From Alphaproteobacteria bacterium (GTDB lineage Bacteria; Pseudomonadota; Alphaproteobacteria; UBA8366), in assembly GCA_028281325.1 (NCBI GenBank), contig JANQKC010000009.1, forward strand, positions 186,001-250,000: DNA of 64,000 bases, in the 5' to 3' direction. Under the pieces are notes generated by a model that was not told the origin of the DNA, made no database searches, and saw only the letters and a program-made list of their open reading frames with translations. Position 1 is the stretch's first letter, and each line of letters starts with the position of its first letter. Both the position numbers and the translations under genes were made by a program. Shown here piece after piece: positions 47,819 through 58,609 of this stretch.

Positions 47819-48481
47819 TCAACCTCGACGCCATCGATACACAGCGATGCCGCCAAGGACCGACAATCCCGACAACAGCAGGAACACGGCCGCCGGCAAC
47901 GGCACCGGCGACACGGCGCTCACCACCTCGGCCGCTTGGACGCGCGCGAACGGCGCGGCGAAGACCTGACTGCCGTCGCTGGTCCCGCGCCCCGCCCGGA
48001 CGTTGAAATTGGCGAAGGTGAATTCGATGAACCCGTCCGCGCTCGTGAAGTTCGGCGTGATCCGAATCCGGCCATCGATCGTCCCATCGATCACCGTCGC
48101 CAGGTTCGACGTTATTCCGTCGAACAGGCTGCCGGCCGAGATGAACGGCACGATCGCCGCCGAGGCGACAACCCCGCTGCCCAGCAAGGTTGACCCGTCG
48201 AACAGCTCGGCATTCACCGAGATATTCGACTCCGATGCGCTAAACGGCGTCGTCGTCAACGCAAGCACGTCGACACCGCCCGGCACGACCGGCGGCGTGT
48301 TGAAAAAGGAGAACTCGACCTCAAGCGCCTGCCCCGGCGTCACCAACAACGCCGCGGCATCGTTGCGCCAGCCCGAAAAGGACAACAGGGTCAAAAGAAG
48401 GAGAAAGACCGAAATACACCGCGAAACGGCGCGCGGGCGTGCGAAACCCAAGCAAACGCCGTTCGTCACAGACCGTCGCAT
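47819..48481 (-). CDS. VPLPA-CTERM exported protein
   Basis: 220 residues from ATG 48481, preceded by GGTGG. A long N-terminal hydrophobic segment (CISVFLLLLTLLSFSG) acts as the export signal. The body is beta-rich. The last 29 residues are VPLPAAVFLLLSGLSVL followed by a basic YRWRRG tail, a VPLPA-CTERM sorting signal recognised by an exosortase. It is therefore probably a surface or exopolysaccharide-associated protein. No exosortase gene is in the window. Confidence 0.85.
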   Translation of the reverse strand: MRRSVTNGVCLGFARPRAVSRCISVFLLLLTLLSFSGWRNDAAALLVTPGQALEVEFSFFNTPPVVPGGVDVLALTTTPFSASESNISVNAELFDGSTLLGSGVVASAAIVPFISAGSLFDGITSNLATVIDGTIDGRIRITPNFTSADGFIEFTFANFNVRAGRGTSDGSQVFAAPFARVQAAEVVSAVSPVPLPAAVFLLLSGLSVLGGIAVYRWRRG

Positions 48482-48605
48482 GATATCCACCAATGCTTCC
48501 CACACCAAAAGCGGTAACACTTTAGGTATAGGTCATTGGTCTAATCAAGAAGAATATGGTTAAGAGCGATGATTCTAAATGGAAATCCACCGCGTGGCGA
48601 CGATG

Positions 48606-50735: not shown

Positions 50736-51755
50736 TCAGGAATCGTCTCGGAAATCGGCCGCGGCGGACTCGGTAAACGGCAACCCGGACGACAAAACCA
50801 GCCGCACCAGATCGGCCTGACGGTTCACATCGGTCTTGCCGAATACCTGCTTCAGATATGTCCGCGCGGAACTCAGCGTAACCCCCATATCGTCCGCGGC
50901 CTCTTCGAGACGCAACCCGGCAACCAACCCCTGCACCAGTTTCGCCTCCGATCGGGTGAGACCGAACAGGCTGCGCAACGCGGGCAGCGACGGCCGGCCC
51001 TGGCTTTCGGGATCCGTCAGGAACAGAAGCACCGATGGCTGTTCGGCGTTGTCCAGCGCCGTCACAATCGCGGACAACGGCCGCAGCAACGATTTGCGCG
51101 TGAGCGCAAGCATCGCTTCGGGAACCGACGCGTCGGTCAGGACGGTGTCGATATGTCGCCGCAGCGCTTTCGAATCTGTCTTCGTCGCCGCCCGGCATGT
51201 CCCGTCCGGAGACACGGTTATACCGTCCCCCGCGGAGAGCATTTCGCCGGCCCGCGCATTCGCGAATACGAGCTTTCCGGCAGCATCGAGGACCATAACG
51301 CCGATCGGCAACTTCTCCAGCGCCGCGAGCCCGACATCCGCGCCGCCCGATGCGGTTGAACCGGACCGCCGGTCACGCCGGCACGCCAAACCGTCGGTGA
51401 TGCCCTGCACCAAATCGGCGGTCGAGCAGGGTTTCGTGTAGAAGCGGAAAATGCCCGCCTCGTTGACCGCCTGGACCGCGACCTGCAGATCCTCCGCGCC
51501 CGTAAGCATCAAGCAAACGATATCCGAATCGGCCGCTGCGAGTGCTTTCGCGAGTTGAACGCCGGACATACCCGGCATCTGCATATCCAACACCGCCAGA
51601 TCAATCCTCGTGTCGTCGAGCCGTCTCAACGCGTCTTCCGGACTATCCACGAAATCCATATCCCAATCCCTCGCGCCCTCTCGCAAGTCGCGACGCAGCG
51701 CGTTGAGGACCCGGACTTCGTCGTCCACGAAAAGAATTCTCGGTCTAGCGCTCAT
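50736..51755 (-). CDS. Response regulator: receiver, PAS, LuxR helix-turn-helix
   Basis: 339 residues. The receiver domain is intact (FVDDEVRVL, phosphoacceptor Asp57 in LAVLDMQMPGMSG, Lys in FYTKPC). A PAS domain (about 145-250; IGVMVLDAAGKLVFANARAGE) follows, and a LuxR-type helix-turn-helix ends the protein (LTRSEAKLVQGLVAGLRLEEAADDMGV, SSARTYLKQVF). It is a DNA-binding transcription factor and the only DNA-binding output in this cassette. It is divergent from the REC-HDOD gene across an AT-rich gap. Confidence 0.92.
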   Translation of the reverse strand: MSARPRILFVDDEVRVLNALRRDLREGARDWDMDFVDSPEDALRRLDDTRIDLAVLDMQMPGMSGVQLAKALAAADSDIVCLMLTGAEDLQVAVQAVNEAGIFRFYTKPCSTADLVQGITDGLACRRDRRSGSTASGGADVGLAALEKLPIGVMVLDAAGKLVFANARAGEMLSAGDGITVSPDGTCRAATKTDSKALRRHIDTVLTDASVPEAMLALTRKSLLRPLSAIVTALDNAEQPSVLLFLTDPESQGRPSLPALRSLFGLTRSEAKLVQGLVAGLRLEEAADDMGVTLSSARTYLKQVFGKTDVNRQADLVRLVLSSGLPFTESAAADFRDDS

Positions 51756-52034
51756 GGGCGGGCTCGGCAGCCAATGAAAGGAATAAATTCATTGTCCGGA
51801 AGATCGGCCAATATCCGTGCCTCCCCATTCGAGGATATCGGCATGTCGGCCGAAGCATAGAATGAGGCGGTCATCCCCACGAATTTATAGGTAGTGCCTT
51901 TAATAATTTTTAAAACTAAAGGTTTTATTTTTCTTTAATGGGATAATATCAAAATTAAAATATACCATTAAAACTCAATACCTGCAAAACGATCCATGTA
52001 TATAGGAAAACATACTAAATATTTTTAATTAAAA
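51756..52034. other. AT-rich divergent promoter region
   Basis: About 279 bp between the REC-PAS-HTH gene and the REC-HDOD gene. Bases 51890-52035 are strongly AT-rich, and this composition continues into the first codons of the REC-HDOD gene. Probable promoters for both; no clear operator was seen. Confidence 0.6.
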
Positions 52035-53246
52035 ATGGAAACAAACAAAATATTATTTGTCGACGACGAACCAAATGTACTTCAGGGTATTCGAAGAATG
52101 CTGCGCAATCGCCGCAATGACTGGGACATGTCTTTCGCCACCAGCGGCGCGAAAGCTCTGCAGACGCTGGCATCGACACCGATCGACATCGTGGTCTCCG
52201 ACATGAAAATGCCGGAAATGGACGGCGCGACCTTCTTGTCGGAAGTACAGAAGCGTCACCCCGAGACGATTCGCATCATACTGTCGGGCTTCGCGGAGTC
52301 CGAGGCCGTAATCCGGACAATCGGTCCTTCCCACCAGTATCTGGCGAAGCCATGCGACCCGGACACCCTTTGCGGCGCCATCGAACGGGCGATCGACCAC
52401 TGCGCCTTCATCAGATGCGACGCCGTACGTAAACTCGTGACCGGGTTACGCGAAGTGCCGGTCCTCCCGGCCACGCTTTCCACGCTGGTCAATGAAATCG
52501 AGGCGCCGGACTCTTCGGTCTCCGCCGTCGCAAAGACGATCGCCAACGACGCCGCGATGACGGCGCAAATCCTGAAACTCGTCAATTCCGCCTATTTCGG
52601 GCTGCCGCGGCAGGTCGCGACGCCGCTGCAGGCCGTACAGTTGCTCGGCCTCGAAACGATCAAGGCGCTAGCGCTTGTCGCAAACATCTTCAACAAGTTT
52701 GAAGGCGACGAAGCGGCGCTCGAGAAAATCGACCAGACGAACCGCCGCTCGCTCAAGATCGGCGCCTTGGCAAAATCCATCGCCGAAGCCGAAGGGTTCG
52801 AAAAACCGATTGTTCAACAGGCTTGCTGCGCCGGCGTGCTGTCGCATATCGGCGTGCTGCCGCTGGTGACGGCCTGGTCCGACCGATGGTCGAATGTGGT
52901 GTCCGCCGTCGACAACGACGGTTTGTGCATCACGGACGCAGAAGAATCGGAACTGAATACCAACCACGCCGAAATCGGCGGGTACCTCCTCGCCATTTGG
53001 GGATTCAATGCCGAGATTTTCGATGCCGTCCGGTATCACCACACGCCGGCCGACGCCCTGCCGCATGCCCCTAATGCGATCACCGCCGTACACATCGCCC
53101 AATACTTGGTGCGTAAAGACCGCGACTCCTACTGCAACGGATGCGGCCTGGACCAGGATTACATCGCCGGGTTGGGTTTGTCGGACCGGCTGCCCGAGTG
53201 GCAGACGGCCTATGAGAAACTCGAACATCGGGATCTCGGACGATGA
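52035..53246 (+). CDS. Receiver-HDOD protein
   Basis: 403 residues. Receiver domain with an intact acidic pocket, Asp56 in VVSDMKMPEMDG and Lys in LAKPCD. The HDOD domain is visible from about residue 135 (VPVLPATLSTLVNEIE, KTIANDAAMTAQILKLVNSAYFG, then TPLQAVQLLGLETIKALAL). HDOD proteins are non-catalytic signalling partners in cyclic-di-GMP circuits. It is the first gene of the cassette; its stop overlaps the next start (ATGA). Confidence 0.93.
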   Translation: METNKILFVDDEPNVLQGIRRMLRNRRNDWDMSFATSGAKALQTLASTPIDIVVSDMKMPEMDGATFLSEVQKRHPETIRIILSGFAESEAVIRTIGPSHQYLAKPCDPDTLCGAIERAIDHCAFIRCDAVRKLVTGLREVPVLPATLSTLVNEIEAPDSSVSAVAKTIANDAAMTAQILKLVNSAYFGLPRQVATPLQAVQLLGLETIKALALVANIFNKFEGDEAALEKIDQTNRRSLKIGALAKSIAEAEGFEKPIVQQACCAGVLSHIGVLPLVTAWSDRWSNVVSAVDNDGLCITDAEESELNTNHAEIGGYLLAIWGFNAEIFDAVRYHHTPADALPHAPNAITAVHIAQYLVRKDRDSYCNGCGLDQDYIAGLGLSDRLPEWQTAYEKLEHRDLGR

Positions 53247-54433
53247 AAGACCGCGTCCTCCTCGTCGATGATGAAAAGAACGTCCTGTCGAGTCTGCGAC
53301 GGCAGCTCCGTGGCAAGTTCGATATTGCAACCGCTGTGGGCGGGGGTGAGGCTATCTCGTTGATCGAGGCCGAGGAACCGTTCGCCGTCGTAGTGACCGA
53401 CATGCGGATGCCGGAGATGGACGGCGTGACCTTTTTGAAAAAGGCCAAGGAGCTGTCGCCGGAAACCGTTCGCATGATGTTGACCGGAAACGCCGATCAG
53501 GAAACGGCGATACAGGCGGTCAACGAAGGAGACGTGTTCCGGTTCTTCAACAAGCCCTGCGCGCCGGAGGTGTTGGAAGCGGGCATCAACGCGGCGCTGG
53601 AGCAACACCGCCTGATCACCGCCGAGCGCGACCTGCTGCAAAAAACCCTATCGGGCAGCATCAAGGTCCTCGTCGACGTGGTTCGCCTGGTCGACCAGGA
53701 CATCTTCACCAACCCCGATCTGTTGCGCAGCTTGGCCCGGGATGTGGCGACCGAGCTCAACGTGCCAAACGCCTGGCGCATCGAAATGGCCGCTACGGTG
53801 GCGCAGATCGGCAGGCTGACGGCCCCGCCCGATCTCATGGTGAAACTGCGGCGGACGGAGACGTTAACGGAAACCGAGCAGGAAATCGTCGACCGCTGCC
53901 CGGAAACCAGCCGCGATCTTATCGGACACATCCCACGGCTCGAGGCGATCGGCGAGATCGCCTATTACCAGAACAAGAATTTCGACGGCAGCGGATTTCC
54001 CGACGACGACGTTCGCGGCGAGGACATTCCGGCAGGCGCCCGTATTCTGCACGTGCTCATCGACCTGCTGGAGTCGAGTGGCGGACGCGCACCGGGTGCC
54101 GAGGCCATGGCGGCGCTGATGAAAAGACCGGGCCGGTACGACCCAAAAGTACTGGAAGCGGTTGCCAAACTCATCGCCGCGGACCTGACATCGATACAGA
54201 CGCCGGTCGATTGGGTGCGCACCTCGGTGAAGGTGCAGATGCTCGCGGACGGCGACCAACTCGCCGAAGACATCGAAGCCGACGACGGCACGGTCCTGCT
54301 GGCGGCGGGCCAAACGGTAAACCGACCTCAGATCAAGAAGCTCGCCAACCTGGCGAAAATGAAACGAGTCTGCGAACCGGTCCATGTCTTCCGGCCGGTG
54401 CCGGATGCCGAACAAATCCAAGCAACAGGATAG
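53243..54433 (+). CDS. Receiver with catalytically dead HD-GYP domain
   Basis: 396 residues. Receiver domain: Asp53 in VVTDMRMPEMDG and Lys in FNKPCA. The second domain aligns to HD-GYP phosphodiesterases (LTETEQEIVDRCPETSRDLI, then DGSGFPDDDVRGEDIPAGARIL), but the metal-binding residues are lost: the HD position reads TVAQIGR, and the HHE-type motif reads AYYQNKNFDGSGF. It probably cannot hydrolyse cyclic di-GMP and may instead act as a regulator. Its start overlaps the REC-HDOD stop by four bases. Confidence 0.9.
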   Translation: MKDRVLLVDDEKNVLSSLRRQLRGKFDIATAVGGGEAISLIEAEEPFAVVVTDMRMPEMDGVTFLKKAKELSPETVRMMLTGNADQETAIQAVNEGDVFRFFNKPCAPEVLEAGINAALEQHRLITAERDLLQKTLSGSIKVLVDVVRLVDQDIFTNPDLLRSLARDVATELNVPNAWRIEMAATVAQIGRLTAPPDLMVKLRRTETLTETEQEIVDRCPETSRDLIGHIPRLEAIGEIAYYQNKNFDGSGFPDDDVRGEDIPAGARILHVLIDLLESSGGRAPGAEAMAALMKRPGRYDPKVLEAVAKLIAADLTSIQTPVDWVRTSVKVQMLADGDQLAEDIEADDGTVLLAAGQTVNRPQIKKLANLAKMKRVCEPVHVFRPVPDAEQIQATG

Positions 54434-55619
54434 GTCCGAATTGAATAAACCCAGGGTACTGTTGGTGGATGACGACGCAAGCCATCTGACCGCCTGCAAA
54501 CGGCAGTTCCGCGACAGATTCGATGTGGAACTCGCACGAAACGCGACAGAGGCGTTGTCGAAGCTGGACACGCTCGGCCCTTTCGAGGTCATCGTCAGCG
54601 ATCAGCGGATGCCCGGCATGTCCGGCCTCCGTCTCCTTCAGGAAGTCACCCGACGCGGGCTCCCGGTCGTCCGGATCATGCTGACCGGTCACGCCAACCA
54701 GGAAACCGCGATCGCCGCGGTGAATGACGGTCAGATCTTCCGGTTCCATACAAAGCCGTGCCGACTGGATACGTTGTCGCAATCGATCACGGCGGCCGCC
54801 GAGAAGTACCAAAGCATCGCGGCACAAACGCCGCCGCATGCCCATCTCCAGAAGGACTTGCGGCACGCGCTGGATCGCGGCGAGTTCCACTTGGTGTATC
54901 AGCCGCAAGTCCTGGCCGCGACGACGGAAATGACCGGTGTCGAGGCCTTGATTCGCTGGATACACCCGGAACACGGAACGGTCTCTCCCGAGGTTTTCGT
55001 CCCCCTGCTGGAGCGTTCCGGCATGATCGACAGGGTCGGCGAGTGGGTGCTGCGAAAAGCGTGCGAAGACGCCGTTACCCTGGATGCGAGCGGCGTATCC
55101 GGCCTTCATATGGCCGTGAACGTGTCGCCGGTCCAACTCCGTGAAGATCATTTCACCGATACCGTCGAACGCGTTCTAGCCGAAACGGGATTGCCCGCCG
55201 AACGCCTCGAAATCGAACTGACGGAGAGCATTCCCGTCGACGCATCGGACGCAATACTGGACCACATGAACGATCTGCGGTCGATCGGCGTTCGATTGGC
55301 GATCGATGACTTCGGAGCCGGCTATTCCGCCTTGTCGTATTTGAATAAGTTTCCCGTGCAGAAACTCAAACTGGACAAGTCATTCGTCCAAAACATCGAT
55401 GGAACCGCGGACGAAACCGTGGTGACCCAAACCGTCGTGAACCTCGCGCACCGGCTGGATATGACGGTCATCGCGGAAGGCGTCGAGACCGCCGATCAGT
55501 TCGACATCGTCTCTGCCCTTGGCTGCGACATCTGCCAGGGATACCTGTTCAGCGCCCCCATGGCGGCGCCCGCATTGCCGGACTGGAACAGCAATAAACG
55601 CCTTAAAATTGCAGTATAG
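54405..55619 (+). CDS. Receiver-EAL cyclic-di-GMP phosphodiesterase
   Basis: 404 residues from ATG 54405 (overlapping the previous gene), or from a TTG at 54441 after ATAGG. Receiver: Asp66 in VIVSDQRMPGMSG and Lys in FHTKPC. EAL domain with the catalytic residues retained: GVEALIRWIHPEHG, AVNVSPVQL, IELTESIP, IDDFGAGYSALSY, KLKLDKSFV and VIAEGVET. It is expected to be an active phosphodiesterase that lowers cyclic di-GMP when the receiver is switched. Confidence 0.94.
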   Translation: MPNKSKQQDRSELNKPRVLLVDDDASHLTACKRQFRDRFDVELARNATEALSKLDTLGPFEVIVSDQRMPGMSGLRLLQEVTRRGLPVVRIMLTGHANQETAIAAVNDGQIFRFHTKPCRLDTLSQSITAAAEKYQSIAAQTPPHAHLQKDLRHALDRGEFHLVYQPQVLAATTEMTGVEALIRWIHPEHGTVSPEVFVPLLERSGMIDRVGEWVLRKACEDAVTLDASGVSGLHMAVNVSPVQLREDHFTDTVERVLAETGLPAERLEIELTESIPVDASDAILDHMNDLRSIGVRLAIDDFGAGYSALSYLNKFPVQKLKLDKSFVQNIDGTADETVVTQTVVNLAHRLDMTVIAEGVETADQFDIVSALGCDICQGYLFSAPMAAPALPDWNSNKRLKIAV

Positions 55620-55778
55620 ACAAGAAATTAAATCTATTTTCAACATAATCCTGATAAGGAATTGGGCATAATTATCTGACTCTATTCATTTTTATGACCA
55701 CGTCCTCAAACGGGGATACTCGCGACGATCGTATGGGCGCATTGTGCGCTCCAAACTGAATTGATTAGGGAATTTCGC

Positions 55779-56675
55779 ATGATGACTTCAAATCGATTGC
55801 ATCGGCGTATACGCCGAACGTTGGCCGGCACGGTCTGCGCCGTCGGTCTCATCGCGGCGAACGGCCTGTCGGCGCAAACCGCGAGCGCGAAGACGGACAC
55901 ATTGGTTTTCGGCGTCGTCCCGCAACAATCCGCAAGCCGGCTCGCCCAGGTCTGGGTGCCGTTCCTGAGACATGTGAGCAAGAAGGCCGGTGTGGCAATC
56001 GCCTTCGCCACGGCAAAGGACATCCCGACATTCGAAGCCTGTCTGGAGCGGTCGACCTATGACTTGGCGTATATGAACCCGTATCACTATACGGAGTTCC
56101 ATGATGCGCCGGGATATGTCGCCTTTGCGCGCCAGTCGGGAAAACAGCTAAAAGGGCTGGTCGTCGCGCGCAAGGACAGTGACGTGACGACCCTGCATGA
56201 CCTGGCGGGCCAGACGGTTGCGTTCCCTTCCCCGGCCGCGTTCGGCGCCAGCGTCATTCCGCGGGCGGAAATGCGATCCGCCGGCATCGCCATTCAGCCG
56301 CGCTACGTGAAGTCGCATGATTCCGTGTACAGGGCGGTTGCCGCCGGCCTGATGCCTGCCGGTGGCGGCGTCGGCCGCACCTTCAGCAATATCGGCAAGG
56401 CGATCCGTGACCAGCTCAAGGTCATCTACGAGACCAAGGAATACACGCCGCACGCCTTCGCCGCACACCCGCGGGTGCCGCGCCAAATCGTCGAAGCGGT
56501 CAGGACGGCGATGACCGGAATCAAGCAAAGCAACCCCGCGCTCCTCAAACCGCTCGGCATGAAAGGGTTCGAACCCGCCGAGGATAAGGACTGGAACGAC
56601 GTGCGGTCGTTGAACCTCACCAAAAAGCAAACGGAAATCTCGTCGAAGGCGGCGGTTCGGTGTCGTTCCGACTAA
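55779..56675 (+). CDS. PhnD-type periplasmic binding protein
   Basis: 298 residues from ATG 55779 (AGGG upstream). The N-terminus has a signal peptide ending near AQTASA. The body is a phosphate/phosphonate-type binding fold: TLVFGVVPQQSASRLAQVW, YDLAYMNPYHYTEF, LAGQTVAFPSPAAFGAS and YRAVAAGLMPAGGGVG. PhnD-like proteins often bind phosphonate or other small anions and can serve as sensor inputs. The histidine kinase gene begins inside its 3' end (16-base overlap), so it probably delivers its ligand to that kinase. Confidence 0.87.
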   Translation: MMTSNRLHRRIRRTLAGTVCAVGLIAANGLSAQTASAKTDTLVFGVVPQQSASRLAQVWVPFLRHVSKKAGVAIAFATAKDIPTFEACLERSTYDLAYMNPYHYTEFHDAPGYVAFARQSGKQLKGLVVARKDSDVTTLHDLAGQTVAFPSPAAFGASVIPRAEMRSAGIAIQPRYVKSHDSVYRAVAAGLMPAGGGVGRTFSNIGKAIRDQLKVIYETKEYTPHAFAAHPRVPRQIVEAVRTAMTGIKQSNPALLKPLGMKGFEPAEDKDWNDVRSLNLTKKQTEISSKAAVRCRSD

Positions 56676-58609
56676 AGACGATCCTTGGCATTGCTGCGAT
56701 CGAGGTCGCCTTGCTCGCGATCTTGATCGTCAGCGGCCTATACTACCTGAAGTCCTCCAACGAACAGCAATTGTTGGAGCGCGGTCGCACGACCGCGCAG
56801 CTTCTTGCCACCATGACGAGCGACGCCGTTCTCGCGACTGATCTGGCCACGCTCGACGCCTTGGTGGCGCAAAGCCTGCGAAACAAAGGGATCGTGTATG
56901 TCCGCGTCCGGCACAAGTCGGGGGTGGTCATGTCGGAGGGCGGCGATCTGGATGCCCTTGAGGCTGAGTTCTCCGAAGACGAAAGTGTCGAAAAAGCGCA
57001 GAGTGACGGCCGTCTCGACGTATCCTTCCCGATTTTCGTCGCCAACGACACATACGGCCGCATCGAAATCGGCCTATCGACGTCGATCATCGATGCGGTG
57101 GTCGGAAAGGCATCGAGCTGGATGCTGACGATCGCGGCCGTGGAAATCGCCTTGGTCGGCGTATTCGGCTTGATACTGGGCACCGTTCTAACCGGCCAAT
57201 TGGCCCGCCTTCGCAAAGCCGCCGGCAAGGTGGCCAGCGGCGAGTTCGGCTACCAGTTGAAGGTTCGCGGCAAGGACGAATTGGCGGACACCACCAAGAG
57301 CTTCAACCGGATGTCGCTCGCGCTCGCGGACTTCGCGCAACAGGCGCGCGAAGCGCAGCGGCTGGCCGAAGAAGGCCGGGACTACGCTCAGACGGTCCTG
57401 CACGACGCAATGAACAGCATGCCGCAGGGGGTGCTGATCGTCGACCCGGACGAAACCGTGTCGTTTGCGAACAACGCGTTCAAACGGACATATCCCGCAA
57501 CGGTCGGCGCCCTCGCCGACCGCCCAGCCTTCCAGGCAGTCGCCCCCATCGTGGCGGCGGCGGTGCAACCGGCAGACGACACGAATGCCGACGCCATCGC
57601 GGATGACCGTATCGCATTGATCCGCGACGCCGCGGACAAGCGGTCTTGGGAAAGCACGCTGGCGGACGGTACGCGCTTGATGACCTCACAGCGGCGCATG
57701 TCGGGCGGCGGCACCGTCATCGTGGAAACCGACGTCACCGAACTGTATGACGTGGTCGCCCGCAACCAGCAACTCGAGATCGAATTGGTGGAGAGCCAGA
57801 AGCGGGAGGCGATGGGCACGCTCGCCGGCGGCGTCGCCCACGAAATCAATACGCCGATCCAATACGTCAGCAACAATCTACGGTTCCTCAGCGATTCCTT
57901 TGGCGACATCGTCAGCGGGTTCACGGATTACGTCGGCGCTATCGGCACGGACGACGACGCGCTGAAAAAGTCACTCAAGGAAATGGATTGGGAATTCCTC
58001 GTCGAGGAAATCCCGTCCGCGCTCGCCGAAGCGACCGAGGGCGTGGACAGCGTCAGCAAGATCGTCCTGTCGATGAAGGAAGTGTCCTATCCCGAAACCG
58101 ATGACAAGGTCGTTTCGGATATCGCGAAAATCCTCGATTCGACGCTGACGGTTTCCCGGAACCAGTGGAAATATTGCGCGACGGTTGAACTGGATATCGA
58201 TGAGAACCTGCCCGAGATTCCATGTTTCCCCGGCGAATTGAGTCAGGTGTTCATCAATCTCATCGTGAACGCCGCACATGCCATCGAAGAGAGGCACGGC
58301 GACGCGCAAGGCACGATTCGCATCTCCATTCATCCGGTCGACGATTCTTTGGAAATCCGAATCTCGGACGACGGCGCGGGAATCGCGCCCGAGAACCTGA
58401 AGCGTATCTTCGACATGTTCTTCACAACCAAGGCCCCGGGAAAGGGAACCGGCCAGGGCCTATCGATCTGCAATTCGATCGTAACGAAACGCCATGGCGG
58501 CACGCTGACCGTCGCGTCCGAACCCGGCGAAGGCACCACGTTCACAATCACCCTCCCCCGGACCAATCCCGCCGAGACGCCCACGGCCGAAGACGCCACC
58601 GCCCAATAG
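56660..58609 (+). CDS. Membrane sensor histidine kinase
   Basis: 649 residues from a GTG overlapping the binding-protein end. Two membrane helices (about 9-30 and 156-178) flank a periplasmic sensor region; a HAMP-like segment, a PAS-like domain (about 250-360; MNSMPQGVLIVDPDETVSFAN) and the kinase core follow. The phosphorylated His is His394 in GGVAHEINTPIQYV, and the HATPase has the NLIVNAAHA, ISDDGAGI and GTGQGLSIC boxes. It probably senses the PhnD-like protein and phosphorylates the neighbouring receivers. It ends the cassette. Confidence 0.92.
   Translation: MSFRLKTILGIAAIEVALLAILIVSGLYYLKSSNEQQLLERGRTTAQLLATMTSDAVLATDLATLDALVAQSLRNKGIVYVRVRHKSGVVMSEGGDLDALEAEFSEDESVEKAQSDGRLDVSFPIFVANDTYGRIEIGLSTSIIDAVVGKASSWMLTIAAVEIALVGVFGLILGTVLTGQLARLRKAAGKVASGEFGYQLKVRGKDELADTTKSFNRMSLALADFAQQAREAQRLAEEGRDYAQTVLHDAMNSMPQGVLIVDPDETVSFANNAFKRTYPATVGALADRPAFQAVAPIVAAAVQPADDTNADAIADDRIALIRDAADKRSWESTLADGTRLMTSQRRMSGGGTVIVETDVTELYDVVARNQQLEIELVESQKREAMGTLAGGVAHEINTPIQYVSNNLRFLSDSFGDIVSGFTDYVGAIGTDDDALKKSLKEMDWEFLVEEIPSALAEATEGVDSVSKIVLSMKEVSYPETDDKVVSDIAKILDSTLTVSRNQWKYCATVELDIDENLPEIPCFPGELSQVFINLIVNAAHAIEERHGDAQGTIRISIHPVDDSLEIRISDDGAGIAPENLKRIFDMFFTTKAPGKGTGQGLSICNSIVTKRHGGTLTVASEPGEGTTFTITLPRTNPAETPTAEDATAQ

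Follow-up and report, generated by a model that had tools for sequence, protein, structure and literature searches.

Introduction

The Hno network (HnoX, HnoK, HnoS, HnoB, HnoC, and HnoD) is a nitric oxide (NO) circuit of Shewanella oneidensis and Vibrio cholerae with a heme sensor, H-NOX. In S. oneidensis, its two kinases, HnoK and HnoS, have three targets: HnoB, a receiver (REC)-EAL protein; HnoC, which carries a helix-turn-helix (HTH); and HnoD, a degenerate HD-GYP protein that restrains HnoB until phosphorylated (PMC6335343, PMC8738867). The stimulus of HnoS has been described as unknown (PMC6335343), and in V. cholerae, vc1088 is an "orphan" kinase adjoining the NO/biofilm operon vc1080-1087 (PMC12393568). 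NosP-NosK-NosR of Burkholderia combines a dead REC-HD-GYP protein, NosR, with its neighboring kinase and an auxiliary sensor (PMC12570481). Here we analyze a six-gene cassette at positions 50736 to 58609 of a 64,000-nucleotide stretch of the alphaproteobacterial contig JANQKC010000009.1 (the window), encoding four receiver proteins, a periplasmic solute-binding protein (SBP), and a membrane histidine kinase. We propose that it is an Hno-like control network for cyclic di-GMP (c-di-GMP) with a swapped input, the SBP-kinase pair, a reading to which we assign a probability of about 0.6. The resemblance to Hno is absent from the interpretation offered in a preliminary description of this DNA.

SBPs of the PhnD type are also known as receptors, with AioX and ArrX serving as kinase partners (PMC5908839). 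As in the cassette, AioX-AioS-AioR and ArrX-ArrS-ArrR use a PhnD-like SBP as the receptor of a histidine kinase, with adjoining genes; they differ in that their oxyanion pocket is not conserved in the window SBP and in that their outputs are sigma-54 or CitB-type activators of arsenic enzymes rather than c-di-GMP-type proteins. In XAC2383-XAC2382, a PhnD-fold SBP is paired with a membrane signaling protein, the output of which is reported to be a diguanylate cyclase (cited in PMC10380989), in place of the histidine kinase found here. Such PhnD-fold receptor pairs (XAC2383-XAC2382, AioXS, and ArrXS) and the Hno/Nos outputs are already known separately. For their combination, for the HDOD member, and for the broad triad described below, we found no description in the literature reachable here.

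Output proteins of the cassette

Gene content, residue state, co-occurrence, and receiver relatedness can be read directly from the sequences. The six genes recognized in the preliminary description (REC-PAS-HTH, REC-HDOD, REC-pseudo-HD-GYP, REC-EAL, SBP, and kinase) are all present, at the positions and with the domains ascribed to them. The REC-EAL protein (54384..55619, plus strand; EAL, 241.5 bits) retains the catalytic motifs EALIRW, NVSP, ELTES, DDFGAGYSAL, KLDKSF, AEGVE, and QGY, in agreement with its earlier description as a phosphodiesterase, and is a predicted HnoB-like c-di-GMP phosphodiesterase. The HnoD/NosR-like REC-pseudo-HD-GYP regulator (53243..54433, plus strand; HD_5, 125 bits) keeps none of the six metal ligands: relative to active relatives, HD is replaced by AQ, the next H by C, HH by QN, and the last D by I. 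Its loss of catalysis, proposed earlier for this protein, extends to the family, as 91 members from many phyla hold no ligand (56 members), one (34 members), or two (1 member). Because no member has more than two of the six ligands, yet Q-x-K and D-G-x-G-F-P mostly persist in the same stretch, the family is conserved as a nonenzyme. That it has been kept in many phyla, together with an HDOD partner, speaks for a genuine regulatory function and against decay. No relative of the window HD-GYP protein was found among the viral contigs searched.

The REC-HDOD regulator (52035..53246, plus strand; HDOD, 170 bits), a probable nonenzymatic partner of the pseudo-HD-GYP protein, contains the sole HDOD domain in the genome. 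Divergent from the other genes, in an HnoC-like position, lies that of the REC-PAS-HTH response regulator (50736..51755, minus strand; Pfam Response_reg, 74 bits). Its PAS match is weak and below the cutoff, and its LuxR/GerE HTH scores 15.3 against a cutoff of 23.5; the orthologues in two related cassettes (L109 and L132) exceed that cutoff, with 26.7 and 23.9, which points to a LuxR-type HTH.

The cassette shares with Hno its output types, namely an EAL phosphodiesterase with its catalytic residues, a dead HD-GYP protein, and a transcription factor with an HTH (also HTH in Shewanella), recognized by domain type, as well as the expectation of a common kinase. It differs in that the input is an SBP and a membrane kinase without H-NOX, REC-HDOD is integral to the set, and the regulators, likened to HnoB, HnoC, and HnoD by domain type, are remote in sequence (the NosR score lies below its cutoff). 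To NosP-NosK-NosR the likeness is a dead REC-HD-GYP protein adjoining a kinase and an auxiliary sensor protein; there, however, sensing falls to a heme-binding FIST protein and the kinase lacks transmembrane segments, whereas here the SBP is periplasmic and the kinase is membrane bound. A single protein with a FIST domain, the domain family of NosP, is encoded in the genome (G000:C20:249200-249751; L288:5730-6860). It sits away from the cassette, with no cassette-type kinase adjoining.

A probable shared kinase for four receivers

The preliminary description had a single kinase controlling all four receivers, and comparison within the genome favors this. In a tree of its 49 receiver domains, the four cassette receivers, which are intact in sequence, form one clade with a support of 0.991, and each finds its best match in another cassette receiver. 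Identity in alpha-1, the first and kinase-contacting specificity helix, is 40% among the four and 17% among other pairs, of which only 2.7% attain 40%. This clade and the common alpha-1 residues support a shared kinase, receiver relatedness being suggestive of a common partner rather than proof of one.

The SBP-kinase pair as the proposed input

The SBP gene (55779..56675, plus strand; Phosphonate-bd, 204 bits) encodes a PhnD-fold periplasmic protein with a signal peptide, the putative receptor subunit, and is followed by the gene of the membrane histidine kinase (56660..58609, plus strand; GTG start). The kinase comprises a transmembrane helix, a periplasmic domain (about residues 33-150), a second transmembrane helix, HAMP, PAS, a DHp box with HEINTP, and HATPase. 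Its sensor region (MSFRLKT...) is predicted to form a small periplasmic PAS/Cache-like domain (pLDDT, 87.5), and the model resembles LapD-type and CitA/WalK periplasmic domains.

The pairing that had been proposed for the two proteins holds in both search directions. In a search for the sensor region across 398 genomes of the phylum, an SBP of the same type lay directly upstream in 8/8 strong nonself matches (at least 195 bits) and in 11 of the 15 loci fetched. A search with the SBP gave the reciprocal result: of its 12 strongest matches, 11 adjoin a match to the kinase sensor region. This test is partly circular, as the SBP profile was built in part from SBPs beside this sensor region. Weaker SBP matches adjoin other kinases or GGDEF/EAL proteins. 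The overlap between the SBP and kinase genes, 16 bases long (56660-56675), is identical in the window and in three other alphaproteobacterial loci (L067, L132, and L149).

The same SBP type was seen in other settings. In two syp-like exopolysaccharide loci (L222:4070-12304 and L225:4588-13083) it is flanked by an SLBB polysaccharide-export gene on one side and a sensor kinase on the other; the L222 kinase is of the hybrid type, carries an Hpt domain, and has a sigma-54 regulator after it. Elsewhere it is paired with a GGDEF protein (L279:4833-6938) or a GGDEF-EAL protein (L234:6372-9227), like the XAC2383-XAC2382 pair.

An AlphaFold2 model of the window SBP (pLDDT, 89.4) has the PhnD fold, with XAC2383 (Z, 25.0), PtxB (24.6), and ArrX (24.2) as the closest solved structures; superposition on XAC2383 gives a root mean square deviation of 2.2 over 247 residues at 16% identity. 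The preliminary description had this protein present a small anion to the kinase, a view that the pocket does not support. AioX contacts its oxyanion through Y88, C106, Y131, S161, S163, H192, and D210 (PMC5908839), at which the window SBP has I82, N100, a Leu near 124, A154, G156, H180, and V198, so that by alignment, as opposed to docking, the His alone of seven contacts is kept. In place of the serine pair stands A-F-G/A, within a PAAF(G/A)AS motif found in 15 of 17 homologues. As one of seven contacts is kept and the replacement of the serine pair is conserved, the ligand is probably not phosphate-like. Two cysteines of the SBP, one after F85-E-A and the other in its last residues, go together: of 17 SBPs, 5 have both and 12 have neither, which suggests a likely lineage-specific disulfide.

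A link to Hno comes from plasmid p319 of Vibrio coralliilyticus, on which about 13 kb encodes H-NOX (HNOB, 131 bits), a kinase, an SBP with 50% identity to that of the window, its MSLRLKT kinase, an Hpt protein, a NosR/HnoD-family protein (466 bits, above the NF053512 cutoff of 400), REC-GGDEF-EAL, another kinase, CheC, a receiver, and HDOD. In Hno loci of the Vibrio type, the SBP-kinase pair is a candidate for a second input that does not depend on NO, and we infer that the window carries an Hno-like version with the SBP-kinase input alone, since the genome has no H-NOX match and its FIST protein sits elsewhere. A conserved SBP partner would offer a concrete, purifiable receptor for ligand screening, of relevance to HnoS and vc1088.

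Distribution of the cassette and exchange of sensors

Gene order in relatives, on which the preliminary description had let its interpretation hinge, is conserved in Hwanghaeella, Roseibium, a Chromatiales metagenome-assembled genome (MAG), and others, though patchily. The SBP pair is part of full or nearly full cassettes in Hwanghaeella (L132), Roseibium (L149), the Chromatiales MAG (L077), and genome G023 (L067), and Pacificispira (L109) has an SBP plus a separate kinase. The REC-PAS-HTH orthologue is present in the cassettes L109, L132, L149, and L057. The HD-GYP protein led to 78 named loci: in 55 of them the gene immediately upstream of that for pseudo-HD-GYP encodes REC-HDOD, and in 54 a kinase of this type and HDOD are both close by. 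The recurrence of these parts together in relatives, with the identical 16-base overlap of four alphaproteobacteria, indicates that the association of the cassette genes exceeds chance.

Across 80 named loci (L071-L150), the triad of kinase, REC-HDOD, and REC-pseudo-HD-GYP recurs in many bacterial phyla, with a dead HD-GYP throughout; beyond Pseudomonadota it occurs in Planctomycetota, Verrucomicrobiota, Nitrospirota, Acidobacteriota, Desulfobacterota, and Firmicutes.

Other proteins take the sensor place in some relatives. L059 has SBP_bac_3 and a kinase there. In three loci (L057:9774-11771, L056:5856-7853, and L058:1-1861), a REC-HDOD/HTH/EAL set stands beside a 174-amino-acid protein and a kinase, with no SBP pair. 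The 174-amino-acid protein had been considered as H-NOX, which was rejected when the domain search run on L057 returned Oxidored_molyb, and it is a possible alternative sensor.

A tree was built of 110 kinase cores; of the 109 other than that of the window, the 82 nearest to it all come from HDOD/HD-GYP cassettes, a grouping that rests on distance ranks, as deep support of the clade is weak (0.31). SBP-linked kinases outside such cassettes are farther from the window core than those 82. Because the core groups with cassette kinases while the sensor region pairs with the SBP, the core appears to track the outputs and the N terminus to track the SBP, indicating that sensors have been exchanged. 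The cassette presents a case of sensor swapping on one c-di-GMP output set. Tentatively, and at somewhat less than even odds, we suggest that a widespread unit, in which kinases of a single subfamily are joined by REC-HDOD and REC-pseudo-HD-GYP, takes various sensors, and that the PhnD-fold SBP pair of one branch is the missing sensor of the second, HnoS/vc1088-type orphan kinase of the NO-biofilm network.

Proposed mechanism and alternative explanations

For the mechanism, we infer docking, phosphotransfer, polarity, and the role of HDOD. The PhnD-fold SBP would dock in a ligand-dependent manner on the small periplasmic PAS/Cache-like domain of the kinase and shift it between kinase and phosphatase states, both of which fit the H-E-x-x-T motif, and the kinase would phosphorylate or dephosphorylate all four receivers. 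By analogy with Shewanella, REC-EAL would be more active in breaking down c-di-GMP when phosphorylated, the pseudo-HD-GYP protein would on phosphorylation release its hold on the EAL enzyme, and phosphorylated REC-PAS-HTH would alter transcription of the cluster, providing feedback. REC-HDOD may act as the nonenzymatic partner of the pseudo-HD-GYP protein. Overall, the cassette would let a ligand switch the cell between free-living and attached states.

Several observations weigh against an Hno-like network with an SBP-kinase input. No match to H-NOX (HNOB, PF07700) was found in this 98.9% complete genome, which rules out H-NOX as its input, and the window pseudo-HD-GYP protein scores 253 bits against the NF053512 NosR model, under the cutoff of 400. 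The only same-genus genome examined (G001) yields no more than weak matches to the HD-GYP protein, the best at 3e-9; the orthologue is absent from this sister genome, and the cassette, judged by that absence, is therefore dispensable. Similarity among the receivers could stem from duplication without one common kinase. Finally, 159 bases separate the REC-EAL and SBP genes, so that the SBP-kinase pair may form its own transcription unit, apart from the receiver genes.

This gap also favors the view that the SBP-kinase pair and the receivers are adjacent but separate circuits, with another kinase driving the receivers and this kinase acting on targets elsewhere. Pairs of the same kind drive other outputs in other loci (sigma-54 regulators and active HD-GYP), and the receivers occur with other kinases in other genomes. 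We nevertheless regard separate circuits as unlikely, given that the kinase core groups with cassette kinases and not with other SBP-linked kinases and that receivers of the same kinds accompany the SBP-kinase pair in L132, L149, L077, and L067. Two further explanations concern the SBP itself. That it is an AioX/ArrX-type sensor coupling a small oxyanion (arsenite, arsenate, phosphite, or phosphonate) to c-di-GMP would accord with the PhnD fold, with the ranking of ArrX and PtxB among its closest structures, and with the role of AioX and ArrX as kinase partners (PMC5908839); the altered pocket and the conserved PAAF[GA]AS speak against it, as does the fact that no arsenic, phosphite, or phosphonate genes were recognized in 46.8-62.4 kb of the window, leaving this explanation quite doubtful. 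Membership in a phosphonate-like ABC uptake system, with the kinase an incidental neighbor, is suggested by the Pfam Phosphonate-bd match and by homologues annotated "ABC transporter substrate-binding protein." It is highly improbable, however, as no ABC genes are adjacent or were recognized across the same 46.8-62.4 kb, the protein falls under the cutoffs of the PhnD model TIGR03431 (82.9 bits against 261.1) and of TIGR01098, and its homologues adjoin kinases or c-di-GMP enzymes.

Gene boundaries and flanking DNA

The overlaps noted in the preliminary description stand in two of three cases, the 4-base ATGA between REC-HDOD and REC-HD-GYP (53243-53246) and the 16 bases between SBP and kinase. 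The third, of 29 bases, depends on REC-EAL beginning at ATG 54405; the first ATG in frame, 54384, gives an overlap of 50 bases, and TTG 54441 is a further alternative. The SBP gene could likewise start at TTG 55761 instead of 55779.

The stretch between the divergent genes (51756..52034) is AT rich (63%, rising to 75% in 51866-52034) and is a probable control region. Within it, the inverted repeat TTTAATGG...CCATTAAA (51934-51972) was considered as an operator and dropped, since 156 of 1,000 composition-keeping shuffles contain one, and a scan of promoters and terminators gave results near chance level. Outside the cassette, the window encodes a short secreted protein (47819-48520, minus strand) with a VPLPA-CTERM-like sorting tail, which scores 19.2 bits, below the cutoff.

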